Below, in pieces: positions 3,662 to 25,439 of a stretch of DNA of 43,127 bases. Below the pieces are notes generated by a model, which worked only from the letters and a program-made list of their open reading frames with translations, had not been told where the DNA came from and searched no databases. Source of the DNA: Candidatus Aegiribacteria sp. (GTDB lineage: Bacteria > Fermentibacterota > Fermentibacteria > Fermentibacterales > JCC-6); contig JAUWMQ010000007.1 in assembly GCA_030613065.1 (NCBI GenBank), forward strand, positions 1 through 43,127. The letters run 5' to 3'. The first letter of the stretch is position 1, and every line of letters starts with the position of its first letter. The position numbers and the translations under genes were made by a program.

Positions 3662-3935
3662 ACTTCCGAGTGTATCCGGCAGGACAAGCAGCACGTCCTT
3701 TGAAAGTAACAGTCGAACGAATGATATTGCCCGTGATTCCATGGGACGCATCTGGGCAGCTTCCGATGATTCCCAGATTCCCATTCGCTGCTGGGATTCA
3801 TCCGGAAATAGCGTTAAAGAGATAAGTAATAGTATTATTTCATCCGCTGCGGGCCTGACAATTGATGATGATGGGCATCTCTGGGTAAGCAACAATGATG
3901 ACATGATGCTGTACTGTATTGATATAGCAGAATAG
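3171..3935 (+). pseudogene. Beta-propeller lipoprotein with an in-frame TGA
   Basis: The reading frame runs 255 codons from ATG 3171 (GGAG 6 bases upstream). It starts MKLLGIVFAAVIIVSSGC, a lipoprotein signal with lipobox SSGC, and continues with NHL/WD-like blades such as DITGLAWGDEFLWAVD, SATGLAYSEEYDLILLG, SVTGLAAHMDYLYISSR and GLTIDDDGHLWVSNND. A TGA at 3567-3569 interrupts it after GMCGG, yet the same frame stays open for another 122 codons and keeps the propeller pattern. Either the gene carries one nonsense mutation, or the stop is read through, or two peptides are made (a GTG lies at 3588). The degraded copy upstream carries the same TGA, so the change is older than the duplication. 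Several other genes here end in TGA, so the code is not globally altered. Confidence 0.75.
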
Positions 3936-8930: not shown

Positions 8931-9118
8931 TCAGGCGTCTTCATTGGAAAGCATACCTCTGAATAGAGGGATAATCCTGTATATTATTAAATAACCGGAG
9001 AGTGCTGATTAGCTGAAAACTTAATGTTTCCCAGTGCTTGAAGCATATACTGTTTCATCAGGGAAGTACGATCAGTATAGCATCGTTACCATGCGGAAAT
9101 GGATGTGGAGAAGGACGT

Positions 9119-12100: not shown

Positions 12101-12166
12101 TTCACCGATAATGAGATTTACTCGATGATAAAGACTGGAGCATTGGAGTGTTGGGGTAATGTTTAA
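9119..12166 (+). CDS. hdrA: HdrA, large double-module form
   Basis: 1015 residues, against about 650 for classical HdrA. Module one (residues ~1-440) has an FAD-binding VVGGGIGGIQSSLDLAESG, KTFPTNDCSMCILSPKLVE, two Fe-S motifs (CTGCGDCAEKCP; CKECNVCVKLCK) and IQCVGSRD…YCSAVCC. Residues ~460-1015 are a standard HdrA: VFICHCGINIGS, VVVAACTPRTHEPLFQ, a second FAD site VVGGGISGMVSALAIA, IQCVGSRDDERPYCSRACC, and a terminal two-cluster ferredoxin (CSGCGMCVELCP; CKGCGVCASSC). HdrA holds the bifurcating flavin and exchanges electrons with ferredoxin. ATG 9119 is chosen because GGAG lies 8 bases upstream and the FAD motif follows at once. First gene of the seven-gene operon. Confidence 0.95.
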   Translation: MSSTQITGAVLVVGGGIGGIQSSLDLAESGFKVYLVEKSPAIGGTMPQLDKTFPTNDCSMCILSPKLVECGRHLNIEILTNAELKGISGKPGNFKAVIEQKPRYVAMDKCTGCGDCAEKCPVKLPDLFNKGLSQRKAIFRLFEQAYPPTFAIDKEACKECNVCVKLCKAEAIDFEMEPKTQEINVGSVILSPGFEEFDAGLIANYGYGIFKNVITSIEFERILSASGPYQGQLLRPSDMKPPKRIAWIQCVGSRDIHRVNNNYCSAVCCTYAIKEAIVAKEHSSIDLDTTIFYIDIRTYGKGFESYYKRAKEEHGVRFVKSEIHRIYRDDNENLILRFSDDNRIREEEYDLVVLSVGVTQSEANQKLAIKLGIQLNQHGFCLTEDFSPVKTSQAGIFAAGVFSGPKDIPETVMEASAAASEASGILATARHSLTRDKEYPPENNIIGEKPRIGVFICHCGINIGSVVDISDVKDYAATLENVVFVEDSLFTCSQDSQQRIKERIEEYSLNRVVVAACTPRTHEPLFQETLRETGLNKYLFEMANIRDQCSWVHQRQPEKATEKAKDLIRMSVAKAKLNEPLFQTKLEVNHSALVVGGGISGMVSALAIARQGFEVHVIEKSSRFGGIANNIHSTIEGSDVQVYLKELIDKVSSNPLIHLHTETEIQDVSGYVGNFKTRLVIGEVEEVKEITHGVVVIASGGDIYKPNEYLYAINPNVFSLIELEGEIAKKNKLISTSRNIVLIQCVGSRDDERPYCSRACCSEAVKLALELKKLNSDVNIYILYRDIRTYGFKEQYYLEAREKGVLFIPYDVSDKPAVEAINKEGKDIIKVTVNDLLLNESFSIDADILALATAIIPSPESAKLAGLFKVPLNEDGFFMEAHIKLRPVDFPTEGVFVCGLAHSPKLIEESIIQSKAAASRAGIILSKDRIESNAMVSTIDKDKCSGCGMCVELCPFIAIEIDVIDNTAIINEALCKGCGVCASSCRCGAVDIMGFTDNEIYSMIKTGALECWGNV

Positions 12167-12252
12167 AAAGCCGACTGTCAGCAGTATATATCCAGTACCC
12201 CAATTCCATTAAGATTCTGAAAATAGAGAGCAAATCGGATTAACAAACAGGT

Positions 12253-12693
12253 ATGGAAATGGGAAAAATAGACACTAACTGGGAACCGAGAATAATCGCA
12301 TTTCTCTGCAACTGGTGCAGCTACGCAGGCGCTGACCTGGCAGGGGTCGGCAGGATGCAGTATCCCGCGAATGTCAGGGTCATACGAGTGCCGTGCTCAG
12401 GAAGGATAAGCCCCTTCTTCATACTTTCCAGTTTGCAGAATGGCGCGGACGGTGTTCTGGTCAGCGGCTGCCATCCCGGTGATTGTCACTACCTCACCGG
12501 CAACTACAGTGCCAGGAGGAAATTTGCCCTGCTGAAAAGCCAACTGGAACACATAGGTATTGAAAAGGAACGAGTGCAATTTACCTGGGTATCTGCATCC
12601 GAGGGGGGAAAATTCGCGGAAGTAATTAACAGGGTAACGGAAACAGTAAGAGCGTTGGGGCCGGCGAAGAAACTGGTTAAGAAATGTTTGTGA
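12253..12693 (+). CDS. flxD: MvhD/FlxD-type Fe-S subunit
   Basis: 146 residues of the MvhD family (hydrogenase iron-sulfur subunit), the small adaptor that carries electrons from the input module to HdrA. The family cysteines are visible: FLCNWCSYAGAD, RVPCSGR and GCHPGDCHYLTGN. MvhD normally has ~130-150 residues. It lies 86 bases after hdrA; the ribosome site is weak (acaggt before ATG). With no hydrogenase subunit in the operon and an FNR-like subunit present, it is the FlxD form rather than MvhD of a hydrogenase. Confidence 0.93.
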   Translation: MEMGKIDTNWEPRIIAFLCNWCSYAGADLAGVGRMQYPANVRVIRVPCSGRISPFFILSSLQNGADGVLVSGCHPGDCHYLTGNYSARRKFALLKSQLEHIGIEKERVQFTWVSASEGGKFAEVINRVTETVRALGPAKKLVKKCL

Positions 12694-12756
12694 AGTTGAT
12701 CGCGCGTAACATGAATCCCACGAATTGGATTATGAAGGAATAATTAAATTAACATT

Positions 12757-13710
12757 ATGACAGATGTTTCAAGCAAAATCAGGGAAGAGGCAAGAAAGCT
12801 TTTGAAAAATGGCGAAGTTGATGTAATAATCGGCTTTGAGAAAGGCTCAATACCTTTTTCCGCAACTCCTTGCTTTGTTAGAAATGAAGCGGATACTGAT
12901 AAGCTGATATGGAATGAATATTGCGGAAATAACCTGGCTCGGTATCTGTCAGAAGTCAGAGGCAAAGCAGGTATCATCGCAAAGGGATGCGACACTCGTG
13001 CAATCGTTGAGCTTATCAAAGAGAAACAAATTCAAAGAGAGCGGATTTCAATAATCGGCGTGCCGTGCGAAGGGATGCTTGACAGAAAACGAATCATGAT
13101 GAGTTGTCAGAGGAAAGATAAAACAGGCATTGAAGATCAGGATGGGCAGTTACTGACCAGGGGTGATTCTCTGAATACAGCTGTAAAAAAAGACGAATTC
13201 CTTTATCCGGCCTGCCACGTCTGCACTAACAGGAATCCGGTTATGTACGATGTATTGATTGGAAATACTATCGAGGAACGGAAGACTGATGACTTTGCGG
13301 ATGTAACCGAATTTGACGAAAAACACTCAGAGGAAAGATGGGCGTATATCACTGACGAGATAGGCAGGTGCATACGCTGTTATGCCTGTAGAAACGCTTG
13401 CCCGCTTTGTTATTGTAAAGAGTGTTTTGTTGATTCTACCCAACCACAATGGGTTGGGAAAACAACCGAACAGAGTGATACACTTTCATTTCACATTATG
13501 CGATCTATTCACCTTGCCGGCAGATGTATCGAGTGTGGTGCGTGCGAGCGGGCCTGCCCTGTACTGGTGGACATAAGAATACTCAACAGAAAAATGTCTG
13601 CTGATGTTAAGAATCTGTTTGGTTATAAAACCGGCCTTGATATAGACCAACCGGCTCCTCTGTCAATATTCAAGCCTGATGACTCAGAGGAGTTCATGCT
13701 TGATGTATAG
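12757..13710 (+). CDS. Flx Fe-S subunit, FrhB-like N-terminus plus ferredoxin clusters (FlxB/FlxC type)
   Basis: 317 residues. The N-terminal half (VIIGFEKGSIPFSATPCFVR; GIIAKGCDTRAIVELIKE; ISIIGVPCEGMLDRK) resembles FrhB/FdhB-type electron-transfer subunits. An extra cysteine cluster YPACHVCTNRNP lies in the middle. The C-terminal half has a cysteine-rich ferredoxin-type motif (CIRCYACRNACPLCYCKECF) and a second (CIECGACERACP). In Flx-Hdr operons two Fe-S proteins sit between FlxA and FlxD; this is one of them, but I cannot say from sequence alone which letter applies. No flavin motif is obvious. It should link FlxA to FlxD. Confidence 0.85.
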   Translation: MTDVSSKIREEARKLLKNGEVDVIIGFEKGSIPFSATPCFVRNEADTDKLIWNEYCGNNLARYLSEVRGKAGIIAKGCDTRAIVELIKEKQIQRERISIIGVPCEGMLDRKRIMMSCQRKDKTGIEDQDGQLLTRGDSLNTAVKKDEFLYPACHVCTNRNPVMYDVLIGNTIEERKTDDFADVTEFDEKHSEERWAYITDEIGRCIRCYACRNACPLCYCKECFVDSTQPQWVGKTTEQSDTLSFHIMRSIHLAGRCIECGACERACPVLVDIRILNRKMSADVKNLFGYKTGLDIDQPAPLSIFKPDDSEEFMLDV

Positions 13711-13727
13711 TATTATGGAATAGTATA

Positions 13728-14747
13728 TTGGATTATAAATCAATTAGAAAAAGTGAAATAACTGAATTCCTTGACAACCTGATCAAGGAGTATGTAATAT
13801 TTGCTCCAATTGAGAAAGATGATATCGTTCTCTATGGCAGAATAAAATCCGGTAATGAGGTAATCCTTGATTACTCCAATTCTGTAAATTCACCGAAAGA
13901 AGCTGTTATTCCTCAGCTGGAAACTTTGATATCCTGTAAAACTGACAAAGATATAACATGCGTAAAAGAACATCTTGATGAACAGGAACAGTTTCTTCTC
14001 TTTGGAGCAAGGCCCTGTGACGCAAGAAGCCTGTTATTTCTTGACAAAGTTTTCAGCGATGAAGAATGTAAAGATATCTACTATGTAAATAGAAGAAACG
14101 CTGTAACCATTATCTCACTTGGCTGCACACTACCGCAGGAAACCTGCTTCTGCACAACTACCGGTGGCGGTCCGTTCTCAACGGATGGTTCGGACTTGCT
14201 ATTCATTGATATTGGTGATAGTTACATCGTTCAGATAATTACTGAAAAAGGCGCAGAGCTTGTTGAAAAACTTGACCTTAGAAAGACGCAGGATGATGAA
14301 CTGACTGGAATGGACATGTTAATAAAAAAGAGCAGGGCAAGTATAGAGCCTGAGATAGAGTTAGATAAACTGAAAGATAAACTTGACAGATCTTTTGAGG
14401 GGTCAGCCTGGGAAATCCTTGCCGAAAAGTGTTTAAGCTGCGGCATCTGCACCTATCTCTGCCCTGCATGCCATTGCTTTGACATAGTTGACGAGGAAAG
14501 AAAGTGTGAAGTAGAGAGGATTCGCCTCTGGGATTCCTGTCAGTTTCCACATTTCACCATGCAGACATCAGGATTCAATCCCAGACCAACGTACAAGGAA
14601 AGATACCGGCAGCGCATCATGCATAAATTCAGCTATTGCATCGATAATTATGGTATGGTTGGCTGCGTGGGGTGCGGGCGGTGTGTTACGCAATGTCCGG
14701 TAAACCTGGATATTCGTCAGGTGTTAACTTCTTTTTATGGTAAGTAG
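13728..14747 (+). CDS. Flx Fe-S subunit, AsrA/HydB-like 4Fe-4S protein
   Basis: 339 residues. It resembles anaerobic sulfite reductase subunit A and sulfhydrogenase beta subunits: LFGARPCDARSLLFLDKVF, SLGCTLPQETCFCTTTGGGP, then two Fe-S motifs CLSCGICTYLCPACHCFD and CVGCGRCVTQCPVNLDIR. These proteins pair with an FNR-like NAD(P)H subunit, here the next gene. Start is TTG 13728, since the only nearby ATG (13715) runs into a stop after two codons; GGAA at 13717 could serve as a weak ribosome site. It ends 10 bases before the FlxA start, so translation is probably coupled. Confidence 0.9.
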   Translation: MDYKSIRKSEITEFLDNLIKEYVIFAPIEKDDIVLYGRIKSGNEVILDYSNSVNSPKEAVIPQLETLISCKTDKDITCVKEHLDEQEQFLLFGARPCDARSLLFLDKVFSDEECKDIYYVNRRNAVTIISLGCTLPQETCFCTTTGGGPFSTDGSDLLFIDIGDSYIVQIITEKGAELVEKLDLRKTQDDELTGMDMLIKKSRASIEPEIELDKLKDKLDRSFEGSAWEILAEKCLSCGICTYLCPACHCFDIVDEERKCEVERIRLWDSCQFPHFTMQTSGFNPRPTYKERYRQRIMHKFSYCIDNYGMVGCVGCGRCVTQCPVNLDIRQVLTSFYGK

Positions 14748-14757
14748 AGGAGATCGG

Positions 14758-15597
14758 ATGAAGAACCTTTACCTCCCGATACCGATGAAAGTCGAAAAAA
14801 ATCTTATTGAGACAGAGGATAGGAATATAAAGACCCTTACCCTGTCTTTTCTCAATAAAAGGGATGAAGAATCTTTCGGCTTCATGCCCGGGCAATTCGC
14901 TGAGCTATCAGTTCTGGGTGCCGGTGAAGCACCTTTTGGTATCGCGTCATCCCCGATGTATAAAAAACATCTCGACTTTTCAATAAGCCTGGCGGGGCTT
15001 GTAACAACCGAGCTCCACAACCTTGACCCCGGAGACACGGTTGGTATGAGAGGACCACTTGGAAACGGCTACCCTATAGACATGCTTCAGAATAAGAATG
15101 TTCTCATCATTGGCGGTGGATTTGGTTTTTCTACTCTGAGGGCTTTCACCAGCTTCATGTTACATCCGGAAAACCGAAAGCAATATGAAGATATATCCGT
15201 CGTTTATGGAGCAAGAAATCCGGGGCTTTTGCTTTACAGGAATGAATTGTCGGAATGGGAAAAGCGTAATGATGTCCAATTGCATGTAACAGTTGATAAA
15301 GGCGACGAGAACTGGGAAGGCAGAACAGGCGTTGTGCCTGTTATTGTTAAGGAACTCAGGGTAGATACGGAAAACACCGTGGCTCTGGTCTGCGGGCCGC
15401 CTGTAATGATTAAATTCACCCTGCCGGTACTTGCGGAATTGGGATTTGCCCCGGAGCAGGTTTATCTTTCTTTAGAAATGAAAATGAAGTGTGGGATTGG
15501 TAAATGCGGGCGGTGTAATATAGGAAGTAAATATGTATGCACTGACGGCCCGGTGTTCAGCCTTGCGCAGTTGAATCTGTTGCCGCAGGAGTATTGA
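14758..15597 (+). CDS. flxA: FlxA, FAD/NAD(P)H-binding oxidoreductase subunit
   Basis: 279 residues of the ferredoxin-NADP reductase / sulfhydrogenase gamma / PyrK-like family. FAD region: GFMPGQFAELSVLGAGEAPFG with the following GIASSP. Nucleotide region: NVLIIGGGFGFSTLRAF and ALVCGPPVMIKFTLPVL. The end carries four cysteines for a [2Fe-2S] cluster: MKCGIGKCGRCNIGSKYVC. It is the site where NAD(P)H meets the complex. ATG 14758 is chosen over an in-frame upstream TTG/GTG-type start because AGGAG (14749-14753) sits just before it. It ends three bases before hdrC. Confidence 0.93.
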   Translation: MKNLYLPIPMKVEKNLIETEDRNIKTLTLSFLNKRDEESFGFMPGQFAELSVLGAGEAPFGIASSPMYKKHLDFSISLAGLVTTELHNLDPGDTVGMRGPLGNGYPIDMLQNKNVLIIGGGFGFSTLRAFTSFMLHPENRKQYEDISVVYGARNPGLLLYRNELSEWEKRNDVQLHVTVDKGDENWEGRTGVVPVIVKELRVDTENTVALVCGPPVMIKFTLPVLAELGFAPEQVYLSLEMKMKCGIGKCGRCNIGSKYVCTDGPVFSLAQLNLLPQEY

Positions 15598-15600
15598 GAT

Positions 15601-16110
15601 ATGATTGACCTGACAAAGACAAATACCAGACTATGGCAGGAAATAACTGATAATTGCGGTGATATTAGAAAATGCTTTAACTGCAACACCTGCGTTGCAG
15701 GCTGCCCCGCGGCTGAAGGTAATCCCCCGCTTCTCATACGCAATCTGGTGCGCAAAGTTCTCTTCGGTCTTGAGGACGAGCTTCTTGATGATGAAACACC
15801 ATGGCTGTGCGTTACCTGCTCTGCCTGTGAAGAGATGTGCCCAATGGGAGTACACCCATTTGAAATATGTCTTGAAATAAGAAGGTGGCAGAGTAAAAAT
15901 GATGAGACTTACATTCCCGCGGCAACAGCGGAGATTTTTGAAACCGGTCATACCCAGGCAGTAGGTCAGGTCCAGGAAAAGAGGAAAGCAGTGGGACTGG
16001 AGGCGGTGCCGCCTACGATCATTAAATTCCCTGAATTATTGAAGAAGTTTCAGGAGATGCTCAGAAATACTGATATTGTCAGAGAAAACGATTATATGTT
16101 CAGGAGCTGA
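15601..16110 (+). CDS. hdrC: HdrC, heterodisulfide reductase Fe-S subunit
   Basis: 169 residues with the two 4Fe-4S motifs of HdrC, CFNCNTCVAGCP (residues ~25-36) and CVTCSACEEMCP (~63-74), followed by a helical tail. It wires HdrA to HdrB. Gap to the preceding gene is 3 bases, and GGAG lies 10 bases before the ATG. Length is a little below methanogen HdrC (~190) but normal for bacterial Flx-Hdr. Confidence 0.94.
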   Translation: MIDLTKTNTRLWQEITDNCGDIRKCFNCNTCVAGCPAAEGNPPLLIRNLVRKVLFGLEDELLDDETPWLCVTCSACEEMCPMGVHPFEICLEIRRWQSKNDETYIPAATAEIFETGHTQAVGQVQEKRKAVGLEAVPPTIIKFPELLKKFQEMLRNTDIVRENDYMFRS

Positions 16111-16114
16111 TTTT

Positions 16115-17017
16115 ATGAAATATGGCTTATTCCTTGGCTGTAATGTTCCGGCAGTAAGGCCTGATGTTGAACGGGCGATCAGATTGACCATGCCCAGGCT
16201 GGGAGCGGATCTTGTTGACCTGGAAGGAAGCGCATGTTGCCCCGCTTTTGGTTCATTCCCGTCTATGGATGAGACAGCAAGCCTTGCGATCAGCGCATGG
16301 AACTTCTCCATTGCTGAAGAAACAGGAGTCGACCTTATTACCGAATGCGGCTCCTGCTACAGCTCACTGAGAATAGCCAGAAGTAAACTTCTGGAAAGTG
16401 AAGAGAAAAGAGAACGGGTTAACAAATTGCTTGAACCAACCGGAAAAAAATTCCGGGGGACTGTTAAAGTACGCCATCTGATCGATGTCCTGTTCAACGA
16501 TATCGGTCCGGAAAAGATCAGAGAATCCATTAAATATCCTCTTGAAAATATTAACGCGATAGTCCAGTATCCATGCCACACCCTCTTTCCAAGCGAGATC
16601 GTCGGATTTGACAGCCCTTCGGGACGACCACACATGTTTCGGGAGCTTGTCGAAGCTCTTGGAGCCTCTGTTCAAACCTATAGCAGGGAACTTCAATGCT
16701 GCGGCGGGGCCGGAGGCTTCGTAAAAGGAAGCTTTGCTGACGCGTCGGAATTTGCTTTTAAAAAATTGAGAGCTGTTAAAAAAGAAACAGATGCTGAATT
16801 CATCGTAGCTTCCTGTATAACCTGCCTTCAGCATTTAGACAGGATGCAGGATGAATTGAATAAGAAGAATAATGACAACGCTTATTCCCTTCCTGTCTTT
16901 GATTACAATCAGATATTGGCTGTCTGTATGGGTTTTCAGCCCAAAGAAGTTGCTTCCATCTCAACCATTTCAAGAGATGAATTCATAAGAAGAATTACAA
17001 AAGTGATTGTATCTTAG
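16115..17017 (+). CDS. hdrB: HdrB, heterodisulfide reductase catalytic subunit
   Basis: 300 residues with two CCG-type cysteine-rich domains. First: YGLFLGCNVP, EGSACCPAFGS, TECGSCYSS. Second: YPCHTLF, LQCCGGAGG, ASCITCLQH. These bind the non-cubane Fe-S clusters at which a disulfide is reduced. CoM/CoB heterodisulfide is not expected in a bacterium, so another disulfide must be the substrate; the DsrC gene 72 bases downstream on the other strand is the obvious candidate. ATG 16115 follows CAGGAG by 8 bases; four bases separate it from hdrC. Last gene of the operon. Confidence 0.93.
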   Translation: MKYGLFLGCNVPAVRPDVERAIRLTMPRLGADLVDLEGSACCPAFGSFPSMDETASLAISAWNFSIAEETGVDLITECGSCYSSLRIARSKLLESEEKRERVNKLLEPTGKKFRGTVKVRHLIDVLFNDIGPEKIRESIKYPLENINAIVQYPCHTLFPSEIVGFDSPSGRPHMFRELVEALGASVQTYSRELQCCGGAGGFVKGSFADASEFAFKKLRAVKKETDAEFIVASCITCLQHLDRMQDELNKKNNDNAYSLPVFDYNQILAVCMGFQPKEVASISTISRDEFIRRITKVIVS

Positions 17018-17023
17018 AATGAA

Positions 17024-17047
17024 AAGCCCGAGCATATACCCGGGCTT
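17024..17047. terminator. Bidirectional terminator between hdrB and dsrC
   Basis: Stem AAGCCCG (17024-17030) / CGGGCTT (17041-17047) with a 10-base loop. On the minus strand the stem is followed by TTTTC, and on the plus strand by aaattt, so it can end both converging transcripts, best on the dsrC side. Confidence 0.75.
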
Positions 17048-17088
17048 AAATTTCTGGATGCCAGTTTAAACATATTTGCTATGGAATG

Positions 17089-17406
17089 CTACACACACCC
17101 ATCAGGCTTGGGAAGGCCTGCTATTTTGCATGCACCTCTTGCCGGTCCCATCGGGAAAAGAGCATAAATATCACGTAATTTAAGGCCGGTTGTTTTGCAT
17201 ATCTTACGCACTGGAGGTGCCATATCAGTTTCTTTCCAGTGGTCTCTTATTAAATTAATTGTTACCCAGTGTATTTCAGTCAATTCGCCGGTGCCATCAA
17301 GTTTCGCGAACTCAGCTGCTACCTCTTCATTCCAGACCTCAGGCTGCTGTAAGAATCCATCTCCGTCAACGTTCAGTTCTTTGCCATTTACATTAACAAT
17401 TCCCAT
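17089..17406 (-). CDS. dsrC: DsrC, sulfur-relay protein with both redox cysteines
   Basis: 105 residues, the standard DsrC length. The C-terminal arm reads GPARGACKIAGLPKPDGCV, giving C93 and penultimate C104 spaced as in true DsrC; TusE-type proteins keep only the last one. N-terminal VNGKELNVDGDGFL and DHWKETDMAPPVRKICKTTG are family-typical. DsrC carries sulfur as a trisulfide or becomes an intramolecular disulfide that HdrB/DsrK-type proteins can reduce. No dsrAB or dsrMKJOP is in the window. It lies downstream of a cysteine desulfurase on the same strand and converges with the Flx-Hdr operon. Confidence 0.93.
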   Translation of the reverse strand: MGIVNVNGKELNVDGDGFLQQPEVWNEEVAAEFAKLDGTGELTEIHWVTINLIRDHWKETDMAPPVRKICKTTGLKLRDIYALFPMGPARGACKIAGLPKPDGCV

Positions 17407-17556
17407 GCTCTAAAATCCTTTGCTGTTAAAAACCATAATTTGAATGATTTAATACATTACACTTAACTGAAAGTGCGTACTATTGTAGCCTGTAGATGCA
17501 GGTTTAAATATACTCCTTCACGAATATCTCACTGTAAGTTATATCAGCTGCGGAAG

Positions 17557-18720
17557 TTATGCTTTCTTTATAGATGCAATCTCCCGAACCGCTTCAATGG
17601 CCTTGTCGATATGTTCTTCCGTATTAAAGGGTCCGACGCTGAACCTGACAGTTCCGTGCATTTTATCGGTTCCTAATTGTACATGAACAAGTGGAGCGCA
17701 CTGTAATCCTGTACGGGTCGCGATGTTATAATCAACATCAAGCATGGTTCCCGCATCTCCCGCGACCCAGCCTTCGATATTTATGCTGAGTACGGCATTC
17801 TGGTTCTCGGTATCATCAGCGCAATAGGTAGTAACCCCATCTATCTCCTGAAAACTTCTCCGGAGTTTGTCCCACAAAACCAGTTCTTCTTTATGAATCT
17901 TTTCCATTCCCTCTCTCAGAACCCATTTCACACCAGCATTAAGCCCGGCAACACCAACTGTATTCAAGGTTCCGGCTTCCATTCTGTAGGGGAACTCATC
18001 AAGGTGAAAGGGGTAGGCGGAGCGAACGCCGGTTCCTCCATAGCGAGTGCCTCTGATCGGCACATCCTCGCAAATGTAAGACCCCCCGATACCGGTCGGA
18101 CCCATGAGGCACTTGTGGCCTGTAAACACAAGGATGTCAATATTCATTGCCTCAACATCAATGGGAATAGCTCCGGCACTCTGGCTTGCGTCCACGGCAA
18201 AATAGATGCCTGCTTCCCTGCAGTACTTCCCGATCTCACTGATCGGTTGAACAGTGCCAATAATATTTGATGCATGATTTATGATCACGAGCCTCGTGTT
18301 TTTCCGGAAAGCCTTCTTAACATCATCAGGATCAATATATCCTTTGTCATCAAACGGTATATAGGTCAGCTCAATTTCTCCGTCATGCTTTTTATGATAC
18401 AGGGGGCGGAGTACAGAGTTATGCTCAACATTGCTGGTGATAACATGATCTCCTTTTGAAACCATCCCCTGAATTACCATGTTGAGAGAATCAGTCGCAT
18501 TATAGCTGAATGTCAAATGATTCGGATTTGTGCCATTGAACAATTGCATTAACAATTTTCGTGTAGAGTGAACAACTTCCTCAGCTTCAAGAGCTTTATC
18601 AAACCCGGAGCGCCCTGGATTCACTCCGTGTGACTGATAAAACTCCTTCATATAATCGTAAACCTCCTGGGGTTTAGGAAAACTTGTGGCAGAATTATCC
18701 AAATATATTAATCCGTCCAT
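17557..18720 (-). CDS. Cysteine desulfurase (class V, SufS/CsdA-like)
   Basis: 387 residues. The PLP family features are intact: YLDNSATSFPKP, NVEHNSVLRP, the anchoring Asp in FAVDASQSAGA, the Schiff-base lysine in FTGHKCLMGPTGIGG, and the catalytic cysteine in ATRTGLQCAPLVH. It removes sulfur from cysteine as an enzyme persulfide. ATG 18720 is chosen over GTG 18726 because AGGAG at 18725-18730 would overlap the GTG. It is followed by dsrC after 150 bases on the same strand, so it may feed sulfur toward DsrC, directly or through a carrier not seen here. It has no Suf partners nearby. Confidence 0.92.
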   Translation of the reverse strand: MDGLIYLDNSATSFPKPQEVYDYMKEFYQSHGVNPGRSGFDKALEAEEVVHSTRKLLMQLFNGTNPNHLTFSYNATDSLNMVIQGMVSKGDHVITSNVEHNSVLRPLYHKKHDGEIELTYIPFDDKGYIDPDDVKKAFRKNTRLVIINHASNIIGTVQPISEIGKYCREAGIYFAVDASQSAGAIPIDVEAMNIDILVFTGHKCLMGPTGIGGSYICEDVPIRGTRYGGTGVRSAYPFHLDEFPYRMEAGTLNTVGVAGLNAGVKWVLREGMEKIHKEELVLWDKLRRSFQEIDGVTTYCADDTENQNAVLSINIEGWVAGDAGTMLDVDYNIATRTGLQCAPLVHVQLGTDKMHGTVRFSVGPFNTEEHIDKAIEAVREIASIKKA

Positions 18721-18975
18721 CCTCACTCCTTTCTGGTAATTGAAAACTATTTAATCCTGTTATTTCGATACACTATGATTTGGTTTTCATATGCACAAGA
18801 CCTGGCCGGTAGATTCATTATGCAGGGCCGAAAAATACTCCGCTGTATCAGACTACCTTGAAGCAAACATAGTAACTGATCTGTCAATAGTAAACTGGTT
18901 TTCCAAACATCTGTTCAGGAGCAGCAGGATTATCCCAATCATGTTTCCTGTCTTCTAAGAACGCTTCATTCTTAC
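18721..18975 (+). other. Intergenic stretch with one 55-codon ORF of doubtful value
   Basis: Left edge of the accessory island. ATG 18791 to TAA 18956 gives 55 codons (…EKYSAVSDYLEANIVTDL…) that I do not recognise and that has no ribosome site. It may be a remnant of an older gene. Nothing else is clear. Confidence 0.2.
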
Positions 18976-19182
18976 ATGCATAGAATTCATTCGGCCTCAG
19001 ATACCTCTGGTGGTGTAACGCTACACCTGGAGTACGAACTCTCTTCTACTGCTCATAACTCAAAAACAAATAAGACTTACCGTAATCCAATCATCTATGC
19101 CATGGAACTCAGAGAAGGAATGAGGAGGGAGGAGCTGACTCAGGCTGAGCTAGCCCGGATGTTGAGGGATTGGCATACATGA
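18976..19182 (+). pseudogene. HTH paralog copy 1, truncated
   Basis: The stretch from about 19015 encodes a diverged copy of the small HTH protein found intact at 20010 and 22490: NKTYRNPIIYAMELREGMRR and ELTQAELARM match TYRNPIIYAQEL…MRREGLTQAELA. It stops after …MLRDWHT, exactly where the recognition helix (SRARVNQW) should start, so it cannot bind DNA in the same way. The equivalent of the start ATG is GTA. The end abuts the MntA/HepT operon 41 bases on. It is probably a recombination relic. Confidence 0.7.
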
Positions 19183-19223: not shown

Positions 19224-19523
19224 ATGGGAATCCCAGATCATATTATCACTAAAGTCAGGACATATTGCAGGGAACATGGCGTGAAGAGCCTTTTCTTGTT
19301 TGGATCATACGCAAGGGGCGATGCAATAGAATCAAGCGATATAGATCTCCTTATTGAGTTTAAGAGCAGTGAACACATTAGCTATTTTGACCTGTTGATC
19401 GTTAAGTCAGATCTTGAGAAAATTCTGGGTTCCAAAGTGGATCTTGTTGAAATTGAATCTCTGGTGAATCCAATCCGACGTAAGAGTATACTATCTGAGC
19501 GGATATCTCTTTATGCTTCCTGA
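19224..19523 (+). CDS. mntA: MntA-type minimal nucleotidyltransferase antitoxin
   Basis: 99 residues of the MNT family: FLFGSYARGDAIESSDIDLL holds the GSX10DXD nucleotide-transfer motif, and a third acidic residue lies in KVDLVEIESL. In MntA/HepT systems this enzyme adds AMP units to a tyrosine of the HEPN toxin and silences it. An excellent ribosome site (AGGAGGT) precedes ATG 19224. The stop overlaps the hepT start by 11 bases, so the two are co-translated. Confidence 0.92.
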   Translation: MGIPDHIITKVRTYCREHGVKSLFLFGSYARGDAIESSDIDLLIEFKSSEHISYFDLLIVKSDLEKILGSKVDLVEIESLVNPIRRKSILSERISLYAS

Positions 19524-19878
19524 GGAGAGAGATGCTGCCCTCATCCTCGATATTGTTCTAGCTGCCCGTGATATCGAAGGATTTATTTCTAATATTGATT
19601 TGAAGAAATTCGAATCGGATAAGATGCTGCGCTATGCAGTGGAAAGACAATTACTTGTTATCGGTGAAGCTGCGAGACACCTTTCAGAGAATTTCAAGAA
19701 GAACGTTCCTTCGGTTCCATGGAGTGCCATTATCGGTTTGAGGAACATCATAGCTCATGAATATGGAGAGATTCTCTCTGAGCGTGTCTGGCTGGTGGCA
19801 GTCAGAGACCTGAAAGGACTAGTCGAAGAACTGCTACCCCATCTTCGCAAGCAAGGGTATAACGAAGCCATTCCTTAA
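19513..19878 (+). CDS. hepT: HepT-type HEPN RNase toxin
   Basis: 121 residues of the DUF86/HEPN family. It has the RX4HXY active-site motif in GLRNIIAHEYGEI, with the tyrosine that MntA modifies, and helical segments YAVERQLLVIGEAARHLSENF typical of HepT. HEPN toxins cut RNA (tRNA in characterised cases) when free of antitoxin modification. It overlaps mntA by 11 bases. The pair sits between HTH copies 1 and 2. Confidence 0.92.
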   Translation: MLPEERDAALILDIVLAARDIEGFISNIDLKKFESDKMLRYAVERQLLVIGEAARHLSENFKKNVPSVPWSAIIGLRNIIAHEYGEILSERVWLVAVRDLKGLVEELLPHLRKQGYNEAIP

Positions 19879-19934
19879 CTGTTCAACTAACTTCATTCTC
19901 TTCAATTCCGCAAGTTCTTGGACATGATTCATGC

Positions 19935-19950
19935 GACCCCATCGGTTGGG
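19935..19950 (+). repeat. Short hairpin repeat upstream of HTH copy 2 (partner 22155-22170)
   Basis: GACCCCATCGGTTGGG here and GCCCCCATCGGTGGGG at 22155-22170 differ at two aligned bases. Each can fold (CCC…GGG), follows a toxin operon, and precedes an HTH copy by 60-80 bases. It may be a terminator or part of the repeated module boundary. Confidence 0.5.
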
Positions 19951-19962
19951 TAGAGCTGATAT

Positions 19963-19975
19963 ATTGGCGCCTCGA
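19963..19975 (+). other. Candidate attachment site (copy of the tRNA-Asn 3' end)
   Basis: ATTGGCGCCTCGA is identical, in direct orientation, to 25362-25374, which is the last 11 bases of tRNA-Asn (including CCA) plus two flanking bases. Elements that enter tRNA 3' ends leave such a copy at their far end. The interval between them (5.4 kb) holds two AbiE operons and three HTH copies. Confidence 0.6.
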
Positions 19976-20009
19976 TTCCCGATTTGCTCGAACCCTTGGT
20001 GGACCAATC

Positions 20010-20291
20010 ATGAAACTGGAACATATACTGCCTGTAAATCCCAGTGATTCAAAGATTAAGAGGACTTACCGCAATCCAATTATCTATGCTCAAGAACTAG
20101 CTTATGAGATGAGGAGGGAAGGCTTAACTCAGGCAGAATTAGCTCTGAAGTACGATATCTCCCGGGCAAGAGTTAACCAGTGGTTATCTCTATTAAAGCT
20201 GCCGAACAAGAAAATCAGACGGATCTTGGCGATGGGTGATCACTGGGAGCGACGACTGTTAACAGAGCGGAGTTTCAGAGGTCTTTACTAG
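20010..20291 (+). CDS. Small HTH protein, copy 2
   Basis: 93 residues. A conserved N-terminus (MKLEHILPVNPSDSKIKRTY) leads to RNPIIYAQEL, then a helix-turn-helix: EGLTQAELALKYDISRARVN, QWLSLLKLP, and a tail MGDHWERRLLTERSF. The pattern 'LTQAELA…ISRARVNQWLSLLKLP' resembles the HTH of ParB/KorB-like and recombinase-associated proteins. It is nearly identical at DNA level to copy 4 from 8 bases before the ATG through about codon 32. No ribosome site is evident. Role unknown: candidates are a repressor of the next module or a DNA-binding factor of the mobile unit. Confidence 0.7.
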   Translation: MKLEHILPVNPSDSKIKRTYRNPIIYAQELAYEMRREGLTQAELALKYDISRARVNQWLSLLKLPNKKIRRILAMGDHWERRLLTERSFRGLY

Positions 20292-20386
20292 ACCAAGCCA
20301 TGAATAACATTCAGATCAGGTTAGAAATTATTTATGAATGTACTGCAGGAGCACTGCAAGTATATCACATCAGGTTCTAATTGAAG

Positions 20387-20427
20387 TTGCATAGTAGTGT
20401 CACGAATAGTATATATTATTCGTGACA
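20387..20427 (+). promoter_or_regulatory. Promoter and palindromic operator of AbiE operon 1
   Basis: -35 TTGCAT (20387-20392), 17-base spacer, -10 TATATA (20410-20415). A perfect 11-bp inverted repeat, TGTCACGAATA (20398-20408) and TATTCGTGACA (20417-20427), brackets the -10. AbiEi antitoxins are known to bind inverted repeats in their own promoter, so this is the likely autoregulatory operator. Confidence 0.75.
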
Positions 20428-20447
20428 TGAAGAAGTGGAGAGTATAA

Positions 20448-21053
20448 GTGTATAGTATTGCACAGAAAGTTACTAGCAGGATATATGGCAAAGGTCGGGG
20501 TTGGTGCTTTACTCCAAGTGTATTCTTCGATCTCGGTAGTCCCGAAAACATCAGGAAAATTCTCTCTCGATTAGTGATGAGAAAAACCATCCGTAGACTG
20601 GCACAAGGTATATTTGATTATCCGAGAAAACACCCAGCATTAGGTTATCTTCCACCAAAGCCTACTGATGTTGCGCAAGCGCTTGCGAGCAGAGATACAT
20701 GCAATTTTCAGCCTTCAGGAGCTACCGCAGCGAACATATTGGGACTGAGTGAGCAGGTACCCGCTAGAGCTTTATTCTATACAGATGGGCCATCGCGTAA
20801 GGTGATCATCAATGGTAGGGAAATAATCATGCGGAAAACAACACCAAAGAAAATGATATGTGCTGGGAAAATAAGCGGGACGGTGATCAGCGCGCTTAAG
20901 TTTCTCGGACGAAATAATGTGAGTGAATGGCAACTTAAACATCTACGGAAGATTCTACCACAAGAGGAAAAACAGCAATTACTTAAAGATAAGATATTCG
21001 CGCCTGAATGGATAAGACCCCTACTGGAGAGGATTGCTGAACAAGGAACATGA
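20448..21053 (+). CDS. abiEi: AbiEi-type antitoxin (DUF6088)
   Basis: 201 residues of the DUF6088 branch of AbiEi-like antitoxins: SIAQKVTSRIYGKGRGWCFT, the winged-helix part ending GIFDYPRKHPALG, FQPSGATAANILGLSEQVPA, then FYTDGPSRKVIINGREI. Type IV antitoxins of this class repress their operon through the N-terminal winged helix. The start is GTG 20448, with GGAGAG 7 bases upstream; no ATG fits. The end overlaps the toxin start by ATGA, so translation is coupled. The operator palindrome is 20 bases upstream. Confidence 0.9.
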   Translation: MYSIAQKVTSRIYGKGRGWCFTPSVFFDLGSPENIRKILSRLVMRKTIRRLAQGIFDYPRKHPALGYLPPKPTDVAQALASRDTCNFQPSGATAANILGLSEQVPARALFYTDGPSRKVIINGREIIMRKTTPKKMICAGKISGTVISALKFLGRNNVSEWQLKHLRKILPQEEKQQLLKDKIFAPEWIRPLLERIAEQGT

Positions 21054-22078
21054 TTAAGTTTGCGTCTCTTTCACAGCGTGACAGGAATCCATACTTCGAG
21101 GAAGTTGCCAGTCGTCGTGGTATTACACCTTTGATTGTAGAAAAGGATTTCTGGGTTTCCTTTCTTCTCAGAATGATATTTGATCTAAACGAGACTCGGA
21201 ATATCCTGTTTTTCAAGGGAGGAACTTCCCTCTCAAAGGTTTATGGTGTTATCAACCGCTTCTCTGAAGATGTTGATCTCTCGCTTGACCCGGAATGGCT
21301 TGGATTTAGAGGAGATAACAGTCCCACATCCGCTCCATCCCGTTCACAGTTTCTAAAAAGGCTCTCAACTCTTAATAATGTTTGTGCCGAAAAGGTCGAG
21401 AATACGTTGGTACCTCTCCTTGAGATCGAAATCAGGAAGTTGATAGGGGATCCTCCATTCTCCGGAAATTGTATGAATTTTCTACTCGATGAAAGAACGA
21501 AGTCACCCGTGATTCACGTTAAATATCCGACAGATAGAGAATCGGGAGCAGGTTTGATTAGGCCGGAGGTGAAGTTGGAACTAGGCTCACTCACTGATCA
21601 GAGCCCAACAGAGTACCGCAATATCTCGTCCTGGGTAGCAGAGGAATTTCCCAGTGTTATCCATGATCCAAGCTTTGCTGTTGTAGTACTGATTGCAGAA
21701 CGTACATTCTGGGAAAAGGTGACTATTCTGCATGCTGAGTCCAACAGACCAATGAGATCTCCAATGCGCAGGAATCTCTCTCGAGATTTCTATGATGTAT
21801 GGTCGATATCCAGAAGTGAGATTGGCAGAAGCGCACTGGAAGACAGAGCTTTACTTGCAAGAGTCGTGGAATACAAGAAGACCTATTATTACTCGAGCTG
21901 GGCAAGTTATGAAACTGCGAAGCCTGGCACGCTCAGACTATTGCCAAATGAGCAACGCATTCGAGAGCTTCGCTCTGATTACATTAGAATGAGAGAGATG
22001 TTCTTCGAGGAACCACCCAGCTTTGAGGATCTAATGACCGGGATATCCAGCTTACAGGATATGATAAACAGTGATTAA
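21050..22078 (+). CDS. abiEii: AbiEii-type nucleotidyltransferase toxin
   Basis: 342 residues of the AbiEii/AbiGii (DUF1814) family. Motif I FKGGTSLSKVYGVI, motif II RFSEDVDLSLD, and the later motifs FWEKVTILHAES and LSRDFYDVWSI are all present, so the enzyme looks intact. Family members transfer nucleotides, in studied cases to tRNA 3' ends, and block growth or phage. Overlaps abiEi by four bases. The gene is followed by about 75 bases, then by the hairpin repeat at 22155 and HTH copies 3 and 4. Confidence 0.92.
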   Translation: MIKFASLSQRDRNPYFEEVASRRGITPLIVEKDFWVSFLLRMIFDLNETRNILFFKGGTSLSKVYGVINRFSEDVDLSLDPEWLGFRGDNSPTSAPSRSQFLKRLSTLNNVCAEKVENTLVPLLEIEIRKLIGDPPFSGNCMNFLLDERTKSPVIHVKYPTDRESGAGLIRPEVKLELGSLTDQSPTEYRNISSWVAEEFPSVIHDPSFAVVVLIAERTFWEKVTILHAESNRPMRSPMRRNLSRDFYDVWSISRSEIGRSALEDRALLARVVEYKKTYYYSSWASYETAKPGTLRLLPNEQRIRELRSDYIRMREMFFEEPPSFEDLMTGISSLQDMINSD

Positions 22079-22233
22079 AGTAAGCATATGGATTCAGAGA
22101 CTTTGCATACTATAGGTTAAGAGTCAGAGCCTTATGTGCCTGATATTGGAAAGTGCCCCCATCGGTGGGGTAAAACCGAGCCCCAATTAGAAGTGGCTCC
22201 TCGGTAGTGTCTCCCAGCGAACCATCCTGTGGT

Positions 22234-22433
22234 ATGATACAATTCATTCTAATCAAATAAAACGCAAACCAAAGAAAACTTTCAGGAATCCAATCATTCT
22301 TGCTCGTGAGATGACACTGATGATGGAGATGGAAGAATTGAGTCGAGCTGCCCTTGCTAGAAAATTGAGTTTATCCAGAGCCAGAGTAACACAGATGCTC
22401 AATCTGCTTGGACTACCTGAAATGCTTATTTGA
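22234..22433 (+). pseudogene. HTH paralog copy 3, frameshifted and shortened
   Basis: ATG 22234 opens MIQFILIK, the counterpart of MKLEHIL, then meets TAA at 22258. In the -1 frame the family continues: KKTFRNPIILAREM, then ELSRAALARKLSLSRARVTQ, ending at TGA 22431 just after the HTH. A frameshift in an A-rich stretch (aaataaaacgc) and loss of the MGDHW tail mark it as decayed. It is the most diverged of the copies. Confidence 0.65.
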
Positions 22434-22489
22434 AGAGCGAAGATTAATATTCCCGACAGGAAGAACAAATTGACGCTTGACAACCAATC

Positions 22490-22855
22490 ATGAAACTGGA
22501 ACATATACTACCAGTAAGTCCCAGTGATTCAAAGATTAAAAGGACTTACCGCAACCCAATTATCTATGCTCAAGAACTGGCAGATGAGATGAGGAGGGAG
22601 GGACTTACTCAAGCTGATTTTGCTCGAAAGCATGGATTATCACGGGCACGTGTCAACCAGTGGGTGTCTTTGCTGAAGCTTCCCACGACAGAGATCAGAC
22701 AGATCCTGGTGATGGGTGATCACTGGAATAAGCGACTAGTTACGGAAAGACATTTACGAAACTCTATGTGTTTCTTCAGGAATCAAGAACTATACGAGCT
22801 AACTACTTTGAATGAGATTAATCCTGATTTCAAGTCTCAAATTTCTCTCAGGTAA
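22490..22855 (+). CDS. Small HTH protein, copy 4
   Basis: 121 residues. Same architecture as copy 2: MKLEHILPVSPSDSKIKRTY, RNPIIYAQELADEMRREG, HTH ADFARKHGLSRARVNQW, tail MGDHWNKRLVTERHL, plus about 30 extra C-terminal residues (FRNQELYELTTLNEINP) not seen in copy 2. The upstream ACCAATC and the first ~100 coding bases are almost the same as copy 2, so the duplication is recent. Direction is toward the converging AbiE operon 2. Function not known; see copy 2. Confidence 0.7.
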   Translation: MKLEHILPVSPSDSKIKRTYRNPIIYAQELADEMRREGLTQADFARKHGLSRARVNQWVSLLKLPTTEIRQILVMGDHWNKRLVTERHLRNSMCFFRNQELYELTTLNEINPDFKSQISLR

Positions 22856-22982
22856 TTCTGTAGTGACAGATGTTACATTCAGCATGTATTACAAATTTAG
22901 AGTTTGAAATATTCTTATTATCAGATTCAAGGACGTGATAGAAAGTGATATTGCTTTGGACCGGCATATTTAGATAAATGGT

Positions 22983-24407
22983 TTAGCGATACCTTGTGTC
23001 AACAACATGGCCTCTTCTACTATAGCAGTTATTTCCGTATTTATCCTTGTGCTTTCTCAAAGCAGTATTTCTCACAGAGTGAGGAAACCGGCGACCACAT
23101 GAGTAACATTCGATGATGTATACTCGGCTCTGATTTCCTTGTGCCCTAGAAGCTCGTGATCTTCCAGATGATCGAGAAGAAGTTCTTGCAGTATCGCCAT
23201 CGGTTGTTGGGGGAATACCAATAGTTCCTCTTTGGCTAAATTCGATAATATTTCTTGGATTAAAAGGTCTCTTCGAAACAGTAGCTTTCAGAAGACGATC
23301 TACTCTATAAGTTCTGTAACCGTCACTGCTCTTGTCATATGCGTGAAGGATGATGTTACCGTCCTTTGTGCGTCTAAATGCATATGGTTCAATATCTCTA
23401 TATACATCCTGACCATTTGGCTTCATGTAATGTATTTTTACTAGAAGCCTATTCGCTCCAGCAAAACGGATTGGCTCAAGGGGTGTTTGTGTTCCCAAAG
23501 TATATAGGATTTGAGGTGGTGTCCAATCCACATCCTCGTTTGGTCCCATCGGCAGCGCAGCCAGAATCCTTGGTTCAACTCTACCTTCAAGCCACTCAAA
23601 GAACTCCTGCATTCCTGTTAAATAGGCAGGATAAGGTGGGAGAGTATGTAATTGGTGTCCAAGCATATTCTCCCACTCAGATTCAAGTTCGGGGAAGAAA
23701 ATAGAAGATAATATCTGATTATACGTAGGTACTGGTACGCCCTTTGATTCACATTTTCTCGAAAGAGTCTTGTATACTAATCTAGGAGCATTGCGAAGGG
23801 TAGAGTTTCTATGAATGCTAACAACATCATAAAGATCTCTTGGTCGACACCTTTCACCTAGAGCACGGATTTTCTCTGCGAATAGCTCTTCGAATGAATA
23901 AGATCTTACGCCTGTCCTGCCTGGGAGTTCATCACTGAATGGATGGCGAATCCTTTGAATTACAGGAGGACGTGCAACTTTTTCTTTTGAATCCAAATCA
24001 ATCTTTACTTTGGCGTATGATCGACTCTGAAGTGGTCCTCGATAGTATATCCTACCTTCGGCTGATGTGGAGGAAGGTCTAAGTTTGTAAAAGACATCCT
24101 TGCCGGAGAAGTCAATTCCAGACTTATCGTAGACATTCTCCAATACATCTTTAATGAGGGGTACTACATCATCTGAACTAATACCTCTAGATGGCAATAC
24201 GGTGAAGTCCAGGTCTTCAGAGAATCGATAAGTTTCGAAATAACACTTCTTTAGGCAGGTTCCTCCTTTGAATACCCAGGAATCTCGGAGTATCTGATTA
24301 CTGCTTATACCCCAAAGCAGCCAACCGATTACATAGTCTTTCTCAACTACAGTCGCACGAAGTCCCCATTCAACCGATAAATTCGCTATTTCGGACTTAG
24401 GGATCAT
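22983..24407 (-). CDS. AbiEii-type toxin fused to WYL-like and zinc-finger-like domains
   Basis: 474 residues. Residues 1-~280 are an AbiEii nucleotidyltransferase: VFKGGTCLKKCYFETYRFSE followed by DLDFTV (motifs I and II) and FAEKIRALGERCRPRDLYDV. Residues ~318-388 match a WYL ligand-sensing domain: RLLVKIHYMKPNGQ, EPYAFRRTKDGNIILHAYDK and GYRTYRVDRLLKATVS. After a Ser/Arg-rich linker, residues 430-474 contain CYSCGRRFPH…LRKHKDKYGNNC, a possible zinc finger. AbiEii toxins are usually ~280-340 residues. It is preceded at one base by the AbiEi gene, same strand. The toxin call is firm, the WYL call good, the zinc call tentative. Confidence 0.88.
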   Translation of the reverse strand: MIPKSEIANLSVEWGLRATVVEKDYVIGWLLWGISSNQILRDSWVFKGGTCLKKCYFETYRFSEDLDFTVLPSRGISSDDVVPLIKDVLENVYDKSGIDFSGKDVFYKLRPSSTSAEGRIYYRGPLQSRSYAKVKIDLDSKEKVARPPVIQRIRHPFSDELPGRTGVRSYSFEELFAEKIRALGERCRPRDLYDVVSIHRNSTLRNAPRLVYKTLSRKCESKGVPVPTYNQILSSIFFPELESEWENMLGHQLHTLPPYPAYLTGMQEFFEWLEGRVEPRILAALPMGPNEDVDWTPPQILYTLGTQTPLEPIRFAGANRLLVKIHYMKPNGQDVYRDIEPYAFRRTKDGNIILHAYDKSSDGYRTYRVDRLLKATVSKRPFNPRNIIEFSQRGTIGIPPTTDGDTARTSSRSSGRSRASRAQGNQSRVYIIECYSCGRRFPHSVRNTALRKHKDKYGNNCYSRRGHVVDTRYR

Positions 24408-24408
24408 C

Positions 24409-25239
24409 TTATGGAATATCGGATGAGAGGGTGGAATTTATCTCTAGCATCCATCTTCTTGTAAGTATGCCCTTCTTGGCAATAGATGGATCGAGACGAG
24501 AGTATCCTGCACTAATATTCATCATGCAAAAAGAGAGCACATCAGGAGCGTCGAGATGACAATGCTCAATAATATACCCCAGCCTTTTACACACTGTTCT
24601 ATTACCCCAGTTTCTCAATATCTCAATAATAGCAGTTTCGTCCTTGTAGTCACCTGAAAGGAGCTCAGAGGCAATTTGTGATATATGCTTAATACCACCA
24701 CCAAGCTCTGGCTTATCAAGAATATCCACAAGCGTCCTAGCTGGATTAGAAACAGCTACTCTTTCACTCTCTCTCCAAACTTGGACTGTATTCGAAATAA
24801 GATCTGATGGAATCGTCACTACTAAATATTTAGTATTTTTGACTTCGTGCTTTCGGTAACGAGTATCCAAGGATGTAAATACTACGATATCACGGAATAT
24901 TTGTTCAGTAAGTCCCCAATGTTCGGCGGCACTCCAACCACCAATGTAGCAGGGAGAAAAGAGCTTCTTAGCTATTAACCACGGATCAACTACCCATTTA
25001 CTTGGATTGATGGCATCAAGCGGTACTGTGATGTATACACCACGCCTTATTCTTGAGAGCCATCCTCTTGCTGCCCAATATGCTAGAAGCCTATTTGTTC
25101 GATTCGATGGTAACGCAAGGCATTCTGCTGCTTCTCGGGATGAAAACGGGCTTTGAAAGGTACGATGTAGTCGAGAGAGTAGCGCCCTGTGGTCTTTTGA
25201 GATTCCTCTTGGTTGGGATATGGTATAATTGCTATGCAT
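24409..25239 (-). CDS. AbiEi-type antitoxin (operon 2)
   Basis: 276 residues. The N-terminal winged helix (FSSREAAECLALPSNRTNRL, YWAARGWLSRIRRGVYITVP) and the C-terminal AbiEi part (YIGGWSAAEHWGLTEQ; SNPARTLVDILDKPELGGG) match the classic AbiEi antitoxin, a different branch from the DUF6088 antitoxin of operon 1. ATG 25239 is chosen because GAGG lies 9 bases upstream and the earlier in-frame ATGs lie inside the operator palindrome. It ends one base before the toxin gene. It represses its own promoter, if the family rule holds. Confidence 0.88.
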   Translation of the reverse strand: MHSNYTISQPRGISKDHRALLSRLHRTFQSPFSSREAAECLALPSNRTNRLLAYWAARGWLSRIRRGVYITVPLDAINPSKWVVDPWLIAKKLFSPCYIGGWSAAEHWGLTEQIFRDIVVFTSLDTRYRKHEVKNTKYLVVTIPSDLISNTVQVWRESERVAVSNPARTLVDILDKPELGGGIKHISQIASELLSGDYKDETAIIEILRNWGNRTVCKRLGYIIEHCHLDAPDVLSFCMMNISAGYSRLDPSIAKKGILTRRWMLEINSTLSSDIP

Positions 25240-25246
25240 AAGTTTC

Positions 25247-25299
25247 ATCCTCATTGAAACAAGATGAGGATATATATACCACCAATGAAAAATATGCAA
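25247..25299 (-). promoter_or_regulatory. Promoter and inverted repeat of AbiE operon 2
   Basis: On the minus strand: -35 TTGCAT (25299-25294), 17-base spacer, -10 TATATA (25276-25271). A perfect 8-bp inverted repeat ATCCTCAT / ATGAGGAT (25247-25254, 25264-25271) lies at the expected transcription start. Same promoter hexamers and spacing as operon 1, but a different operator sequence. Confidence 0.65.
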
Positions 25300-25363
25300 G
25301 TTGCCTTTAGCATCGTTGTACCACTTGTCAACCAGAGATGGGGGGGGCGAGCAGATCGGGAAT

Positions 25364-25439
25364 TGGCGCCTCGACGAGGACTTGAACCTCGGACCTAGTG
25401 GTTAACAGCCACCCGCTCTACCAACTGAGCTATCGAGGC
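25364..25439 (-). tRNA. tRNA-Asn (GTT)
   Basis: A complete cloverleaf on the reverse strand: acceptor GCCTCGA / TCGAGGC, D-arm GCTC AGTTGGTA GAGC, anticodon arm GGTGG CTGTTAA CCACT (anticodon GTT), T-arm CGAGG TTCAAGT CCTCG, discriminator G, and encoded CCA. Its 3' end is the right copy of the 13-bp repeat that bounds the accessory island, so it has probably served as an integration target. Confidence 0.96.

Follow-up and report, generated by a model that had tools for sequence, protein, structure and literature searches.

Tandem cassettes with attachment sites of the large-serine-recombinase type at a tRNA-Asn gene of Candidatus Aegiribacteria

Results

Organization of the tRNA-Asn locus

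The window, by which we mean the whole 43,127-nt stretch of Candidatus Aegiribacteria sp. contig JAUWMQ010000007.1 that was analysed, contains a tRNA-Asn(GTT) gene with an encoded CCA (25364-25439 (-), ARAGORN), the 3' end of which recurs 5.4 kb away. The 13-mer ATTGGCGCCTCGA is found, exactly and in direct orientation, at 19963-19975 and 25362-25374, the right copy consisting of the last 11 bases of the tRNA gene plus two, as a first-pass annotation of this DNA had reported. The 2.81 Mb genome contains no further exact copy, and our own arithmetic predicts about 0.08 exact chance copies per 2.8 Mb; the objection, raised in the annotation itself, that the 13-mer might be common across the genome is thereby removed.

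The T-arm and acceptor 3' strand of the tRNA gene correspond to the left half-site of an attB, and its end holds the proximal copy of the site core (TCGAGGCGCCA(AT), 25362-25374 (-)). Leftward of it, a P' arm and the remnant of a large serine recombinase (LSR) gene together occupy 25325-25368. The remnant (25325-25366 (+)) represents the LSR C-terminus: it reads LSTRDGGGEQIGNW, aligns with ..MSTRNGGFEQIGKW of the LSR of a relative (G006), and its frame runs on antisense into tRNA-Asn as RLDEDLNLGPSG, followed by a stop. The arm, a type-1 P' half-site (CGCCAATTCCCGATCTGCTCGCCCC, 25344-25368 (-)), is an inverted match to the distal arm at 19 of 25 positions and also adjoins the G006 LSR gene. 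A run of eight G lies inside the remnant (25340-25347); the G-runs of relatives differ in length there, one of them coinciding with a frame change (G045:C56), and slippage or an assembly error is possible.

The first cassette contains an AbiEi-type antitoxin (AbiEi_4, AbiEi_1; 24409-25299 (-), Pfam) and an AbiEii toxin (22983-24407 (-), Pfam) whose C-terminal WYL domain makes it an unusual fusion. Leftward of these lies a type-1 helix-turn-helix (HTH) segment (intC, the LSR C-terminal domain; 22490-22855 (+)) that has lost its arm and core. Next come a type-2 HTH pseudogene (22188-22439 (+)), which reads through a degenerate core, and the degenerate type-2 site itself (GGTTCGCTGGGAGACACTACCGAGGAGCCA, 22194-22223 (-)). 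The operon of the second cassette (20448-22078) pairs an AbiEii toxin (21050-22078 (+), Pfam) with a DUF6088 protein (20448-21053 (+), Pfam) that is, from its position, the probable antitoxin; it precedes a type-1 HTH (intC, 19965-20291 (+); annotated ORF 20010-20291) that is open from the core (WRLDSRFARTLGGPIMKLE..), and the distal site, composed of P arm and core (GGTTCGAGCAAATCGGGAATCGAGGCGCCA, 19965-19994 (-)). Beyond this point lie a HepT-like protein (19513-19878 (+), Pfam) and an MNT nucleotidyltransferase (19224-19523 (+), Pfam), which belong to a third cassette, and, at the far end of the array, an HTH remnant (18994-19179 (+)).

The first-pass annotation had described the interval between the repeats as a single, possibly non-autonomous 5.4-kb unit holding two AbiE operons and HTH genes without an integrase. 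Its account of the contents agrees with our domain searches of 19963-25374, in which Pfam gives AbiE-type operons, ParB-type HTH ORFs and no recombinase domain, and the island is indeed non-autonomous as present, only the LSR C-terminal remnant being left. The single unit gives way to at least two cassettes, with leftovers of a third past 19963, so that the window holds three (AbiE, AbiE and MNT/HepT). The annotation had also overlooked the inverted arm pair around the repeats, the degenerate third copy of the site (22194-22204), the continuation of the array left of 19963 with MNT/HepT and a further HTH remnant, and the LSR remnant abutting tRNA-Asn. Because both type-1 ends match each other, the 5.4 kb may originally have been one unit, or two that fused.

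Geometry of the attachment sites

When joined, the inner ends of the island form a 50-bp pseudo-palindrome that matches at 19 of 25 positions and has the size of an LSR attP. The equivalent figures are 20/25 in G006 and 21/25 in G001, compared with 9/25 for a mismatched pair of ends and a mean of 6.3 (maximum 16) for random 25-mers; G011 has a complete P-core-P' site without any joining of ends (L023:2896; 20/25). Within the tRNA, the T-loop motif GGTTC(A/G) is 5 bp nearer the centre than its counterpart in the island arm, both at tRNA-Asn and again at tRNA-Arg(ACG). The same 5-bp shift separates attB from attP of serine integrases, the attP half-sites of which measure 25 bp (Rutherford et al. 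2013, PMC3783163). A pseudo-palindromic attP of ~50 bp, an attB of ~40 bp and an outer motif 5 bp nearer the centre thus combine here as in LSR-type sites.

The HTH-side arm can be written GGTTCG-N13-TCGAGGCGCCA, with inverted arms on both sides of the core. A search allowing one mismatch recovered 40 P-core sites, spread over 17 of the 42 phylum genomes, against 1 for a reversed-pattern control. In relatives these sites fall between cassettes and invariably 5' of an HTH, and extended arm-plus-core sites are confined to cassette context. Most cassettes are without a recognisable P' arm, and exchange among their repeated HTH/arm segments by homologous recombination is another way in which they could be reshuffled. 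As a candidate attP half, the inner proximal sequence GGCTCTACNCCA.. found no support, being rare and irregularly spaced.

LSR genes at tRNA ends of relatives

Among Candidatus Aegiribacteria and their kin, tRNA-Asn was detected in 38 of 40 genomes searched. Its upstream side is conserved in same-genus relatives; downstream of the CCA, each has a different sequence. Directly after this CCA, and on the opposite strand, G001 (Candidatus Aegiribacteria sp. MLS_C), G006, G021 and G022 carry LSRs with Resolvase and Recombinase domains, whose frames pass through the core (read W-R-L) into the antisense tRNA and stop there, giving the ending WRL(D/E/V)..NL(G/R)PSG. Two of these LSRs are only 27% identical, yet end in the identical manner, and other LSRs of the group do so inside tRNA-Ser, Arg, Glu and Met genes. 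LSR C-terminal ORFs that run antisense into tRNA-Ser, Arg, Glu and other tRNAs (G000:C134 (L178) 2076-3896; L183, L187, L188, L186, L191, L195) are a wider habit of the lineage.

Since a C-terminal remnant persists in the window without an LSR body, the island must have lost its recombinase; and since the gene is missing here, yet present at the same tRNA in relatives, the island is a defective derivative. The only LSR in its own genome (92.7% complete) is of another type and located at tRNA-Ser, so that the island, lacking a matching enzyme, is probably immobile at present.

Flanks and array-free alleles

Window genes up to ~7391 represent the far flank of the array. The ortholog of 5488-6687 is found 10.2 kb from tRNA-Asn in G016 and 19.6 kb from it in G005, where no cassette site or HTH occurs in the stretch that was read. 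G005 can serve as an array-free allele of the tRNA-Asn locus, of the kind that the first-pass annotation had proposed to look for, although other genes fill the space; no relative was found to have an empty site in the strict sense, in which the two flanks would adjoin directly. Gene order at tRNA-Asn differs among them, contrary to the constant order that the annotation had named as evidence against an island. Gene 17557-18726 was rejected as an empty-site flank, being carried in G011 and G021 on contigs other than that of tRNA-Asn. The block 9038-18726 (DsrC, class-V aminotransferase) is 84-95% identical to one on a different contig (C49) in G011 and seems to have moved relative to tRNA-Asn.

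The HTH as a proposed recombinase C-terminal domain

The small HTH genes match the C-terminal domain of an LSR, which fits the earlier suggestion that the HTH proteins may take part in mobility. In G001, a continuous 654-aa ORF ends in the HTH; this sole in-frame LSR-HTH ORF is a chimera, because it is located at the junction of two neighbouring elements. In G045:C56, a contig that was also checked for circularity and has ends without overlap, LSR and HTH are unsplit and adjacent, off by one base at a G-run. Viral contigs, plasmids and phages were searched for LSR-HTH fusions in free form, and none with an HTH end was found. The core is read in one common frame by all LSRs at tRNA-Asn and nearly all HTHs, about 33 of 36-38 HTHs (two spurious rows left out) being open from the core, and in G001, G006 and the window remnant no stop interrupts the reading across joined ends. 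With a dN/dS of ~0.15 (medians of 0.14, 0.16 and 0.17 in three groups), the HTH frame is under purifying selection. By predicted fold and by profile, the HTH comes closest to Noc/ParB HTH domains, at Foldseek E-values >0.03 that denote fold resemblance only. As LSR, core and HTH share one frame, attP seems to be situated inside the LSR reading frame, which integration would split.

The strongest of the competing explanations, although we regard it as unlikely, keeps the LSR elements as described but makes the HTH an independent gene, for a regulator or directionality factor, that merely abuts attP. It would suit the different frames of the adjacent LSR and HTH in G045:C56, the HTHs that remain intact in cassettes without an LSR, and the possible start codon past the core of some type-1 HTHs. 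The single core frame and the open in-frame junctions argue against it, as do the 654-aa ORF and most type-2 HTHs, in which the stretch from core to HTH contains no separate start codon.

Cassette arrays and their cargo

HTH copies occur in 37 of the 42 phylum genomes and in 9/9 genera. The 16.4-kb contig G012:C18 is an array throughout, with HTH copies and cores at intervals of 1-3 kb, and L108 has 8 HTH copies on 16.4 kb. Matches between homologous cassettes of different genomes start 1-35 nt past the CCA and end exactly at the next core, and the same cargo appears in differing positions, contexts and species. This cargo includes secreted beta-propellers, a hybrid histidine kinase, HigB-like and Fic toxins with HTH partners, AbiE and MNT/HepT; a 29-kb element of G001 contains helicase, methyltransferase and viperin-like defence genes.

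Many copies of a 2.2-kb cassette encoding a secreted PQQ-type beta-propeller with a sorting tail are distributed over arrays and genomes (L108, L109, L023, L025, L115, L117), and a two-gene cassette of unknown function is 93% identical between two species in different array contexts (L028:10440-12322, L122:1849-4186). The own genome carries a second family of HTH cassettes (G000:C69 (L127) 74-1904; G000:C121 (L126) 1-3561), the arm of which (GAGTTCGACTGGACAAGAGTCCGGTGTACCA) abuts tRNA-Arg(ACG) on G000:C69. Cassettes of both array families often open with a hairpin-like module, GGCTCTAC(A/C)CCA..GGGGCAC (window 22150-22194 and 19925-19958; L108, L023, L112), in place of which genus g5 has a terminator-like hairpin.

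Short cassettes of the same orientation, many of them with a single cargo gene or operon, one site each and no integrase inside, together with arrays as long as L108, might also reflect an integron-like system in which an integrase acting in trans exchanges cassettes, the tRNA end playing the part of attI and core plus arm that of attC, as a counterpart of the integrase-less CALINs. This we consider very unlikely: the sites combine an LSR-type arm with the 3' end of a tRNA, LSRs are present in the full elements with P' arms, every cassette has an HTH, and no integron integrase was found in the arrays that were read.

Discussion

In all probability, LSRs deposited integrative cassettes in tandem at this locus, and the region is the part of the resulting array that lies nearest to tRNA-Asn. 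Sites, arms, spacing, frames, remnant, arrays and cargo can be read from the DNA itself, and they suggest recombination at these sites, and mobility.

The direct repeat had initially been attributed to a tyrosine integrase. That it marks recombination at the 3' end of a tRNA gene is supported, the repeat being the end of tRNA-Asn(GTT); the type is serine instead, as indicated by the 50-bp attP palindrome, the 5-bp motif shift and the LSRs at tRNA-Asn in relatives, and the 13-mer is the common centre of LSR attachment sites rather than a tyrosine-integrase footprint. A tyrosine-integrase genomic island that has since lost its integrase is even less likely than an integron-like system. The 3' ends of tRNA genes are classic targets of tyrosine integrases, and PF00589 proteins are present in all genomes examined; however, neither the window contig nor any tRNA-Asn junction examined has a PF00589 match, the recombinases at those junctions are of the serine type, the site geometry fits LSR attP and attB, and the C-terminal remnant kept in the window is that of an LSR. 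A third conserved tyrosine recombinase (G000:C78, 281 aa), considered as an integrase acting in trans, was dropped after LSRs were found at the tRNA. The odds of a chance 13-bp repeat within an ordinary variable region are negligible: comparison with shuffled windows, at up to 2 mismatches, is unremarkable alone (3 observed vs 0.89 expected), but the 13-mer is confined to two places in the genome, the joined ends match far above random 25-mers, and the extended sites recur in relatives in cassette context only.

For the array of LSR-deposited cassettes, the following mechanism can be proposed. Next to the tRNA, an autonomous element would have a core and P' arm, followed by an LSR gene that is antisense to the tRNA and then by cargo, with HTH, P arm and another core closing it; its circular form would contain a 50-bp attP (P-core-P'), to be recombined with an attB whose left half is the tRNA T-arm and acceptor stem. 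LSR body, core (read W-R-L-D) and ParB/Noc-like HTH would make up one frame, with attP lying within it, and the protein made before integration would be an LSR-HTH fusion. Upon integration, the catalytic body would stay by the tRNA and end in antisense-tRNA codons, while the HTH (intC) would pass to the far end; loss or regain of the HTH may then control direction. Each later element would enter on the tRNA side of its predecessors, so that arrays build up, and the window would contain derivatives in which both arms, the HTH and the toxin-antitoxin cargo survive but the LSR body is gone.

In its fullest form, the proposal is of a bacterial LSR family with attP in its own frame, in which insertion into a tRNA severs a ParB/Noc-like C-terminal domain as a built-in direction switch, and whose detached HTH-plus-arm pieces serve as mobile cassette ends, generating integron-like, tRNA-anchored arrays of toxin-antitoxin, defence and secreted-protein genes across the phylum. 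We put this forward tentatively, with a little less than even confidence. If it is right, self-splitting integrases extend beyond archaeal tyrosine recombinases; serine integrases are used as one-way tools in biotechnology, and an enzyme altered by its own insertion would make direction control directly testable. The arrays also appear to constitute a cassette platform, distinct from integrons, for toxin-antitoxin and anti-phage genes in an uncultured bacterial phylum.

Comparison with known systems

Like integrons and CALINs, the arrays consist of short cassettes in the same orientation with one recombination site each and no local integrase, and the window contig, devoid of PF00589 proteins, has no integron integrase next to an attI. 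They differ in that the site is a tRNA 3' end with an LSR-type arm, every cassette has an HTH, and autonomous relatives carry LSRs. In the phages with integration-dependent immunity, mycobacteriophage BPs and relatives (PMC4557955), attP also lies in a coding gene, and integration alters the protein made; the altered gene is that of the repressor there, whereas here it would be that of the recombinase itself.

Staphylococcal and enterococcal cassette chromosomes (SCC/ECC) use Ccr large serine recombinases and target the rlmH 3' end (PMC6222049). Shared with them are the LSR, a conserved gene 3' end as attB, sites of ~50 bp with inverted repeats in the circular att, several att sites per region and very variable cargo. 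Unlike SCC/ECC, the target is a tRNA 3' end, here that of tRNA-Asn, attP appears to be placed inside the reading frame of the LSR, an HTH domain is part of each cassette, the cassettes are often 1-3 kb with many in tandem, and there is a single LSR, which Pfam does not call Ccr.

The archaeal 'suicidal' integrases of SSV type (SSV1, pTN3, pT26-2) belong to the recombinases that disrupt their own gene, which have been described as exclusive to archaea (review, 2021, PMC8371274). As with these, the target is a tRNA and remnants mark old insertions, and attP would be inside the recombinase gene, which integration would cut in two; the frames to either side of the core agree and the junctions are open, one case (G045:C56) being off-frame. 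By contrast, the recombinase here is serine rather than tyrosine, its hosts are bacterial, and its catalytic, recombinase and zinc-ribbon domains stay together, so that only the C-terminal HTH would be separated. No paper on a serine-type self-disrupting recombinase was found in the literature searched, although one may exist.

In summary, the system appears to work like a self-disrupting SSV-type integrase but, with its serine recombinase domains and bacterial genomes, is not a member of that group; SCC/ECC is nearest to it in mechanism, and the archaeal suicidal integrases are nearest in logic.
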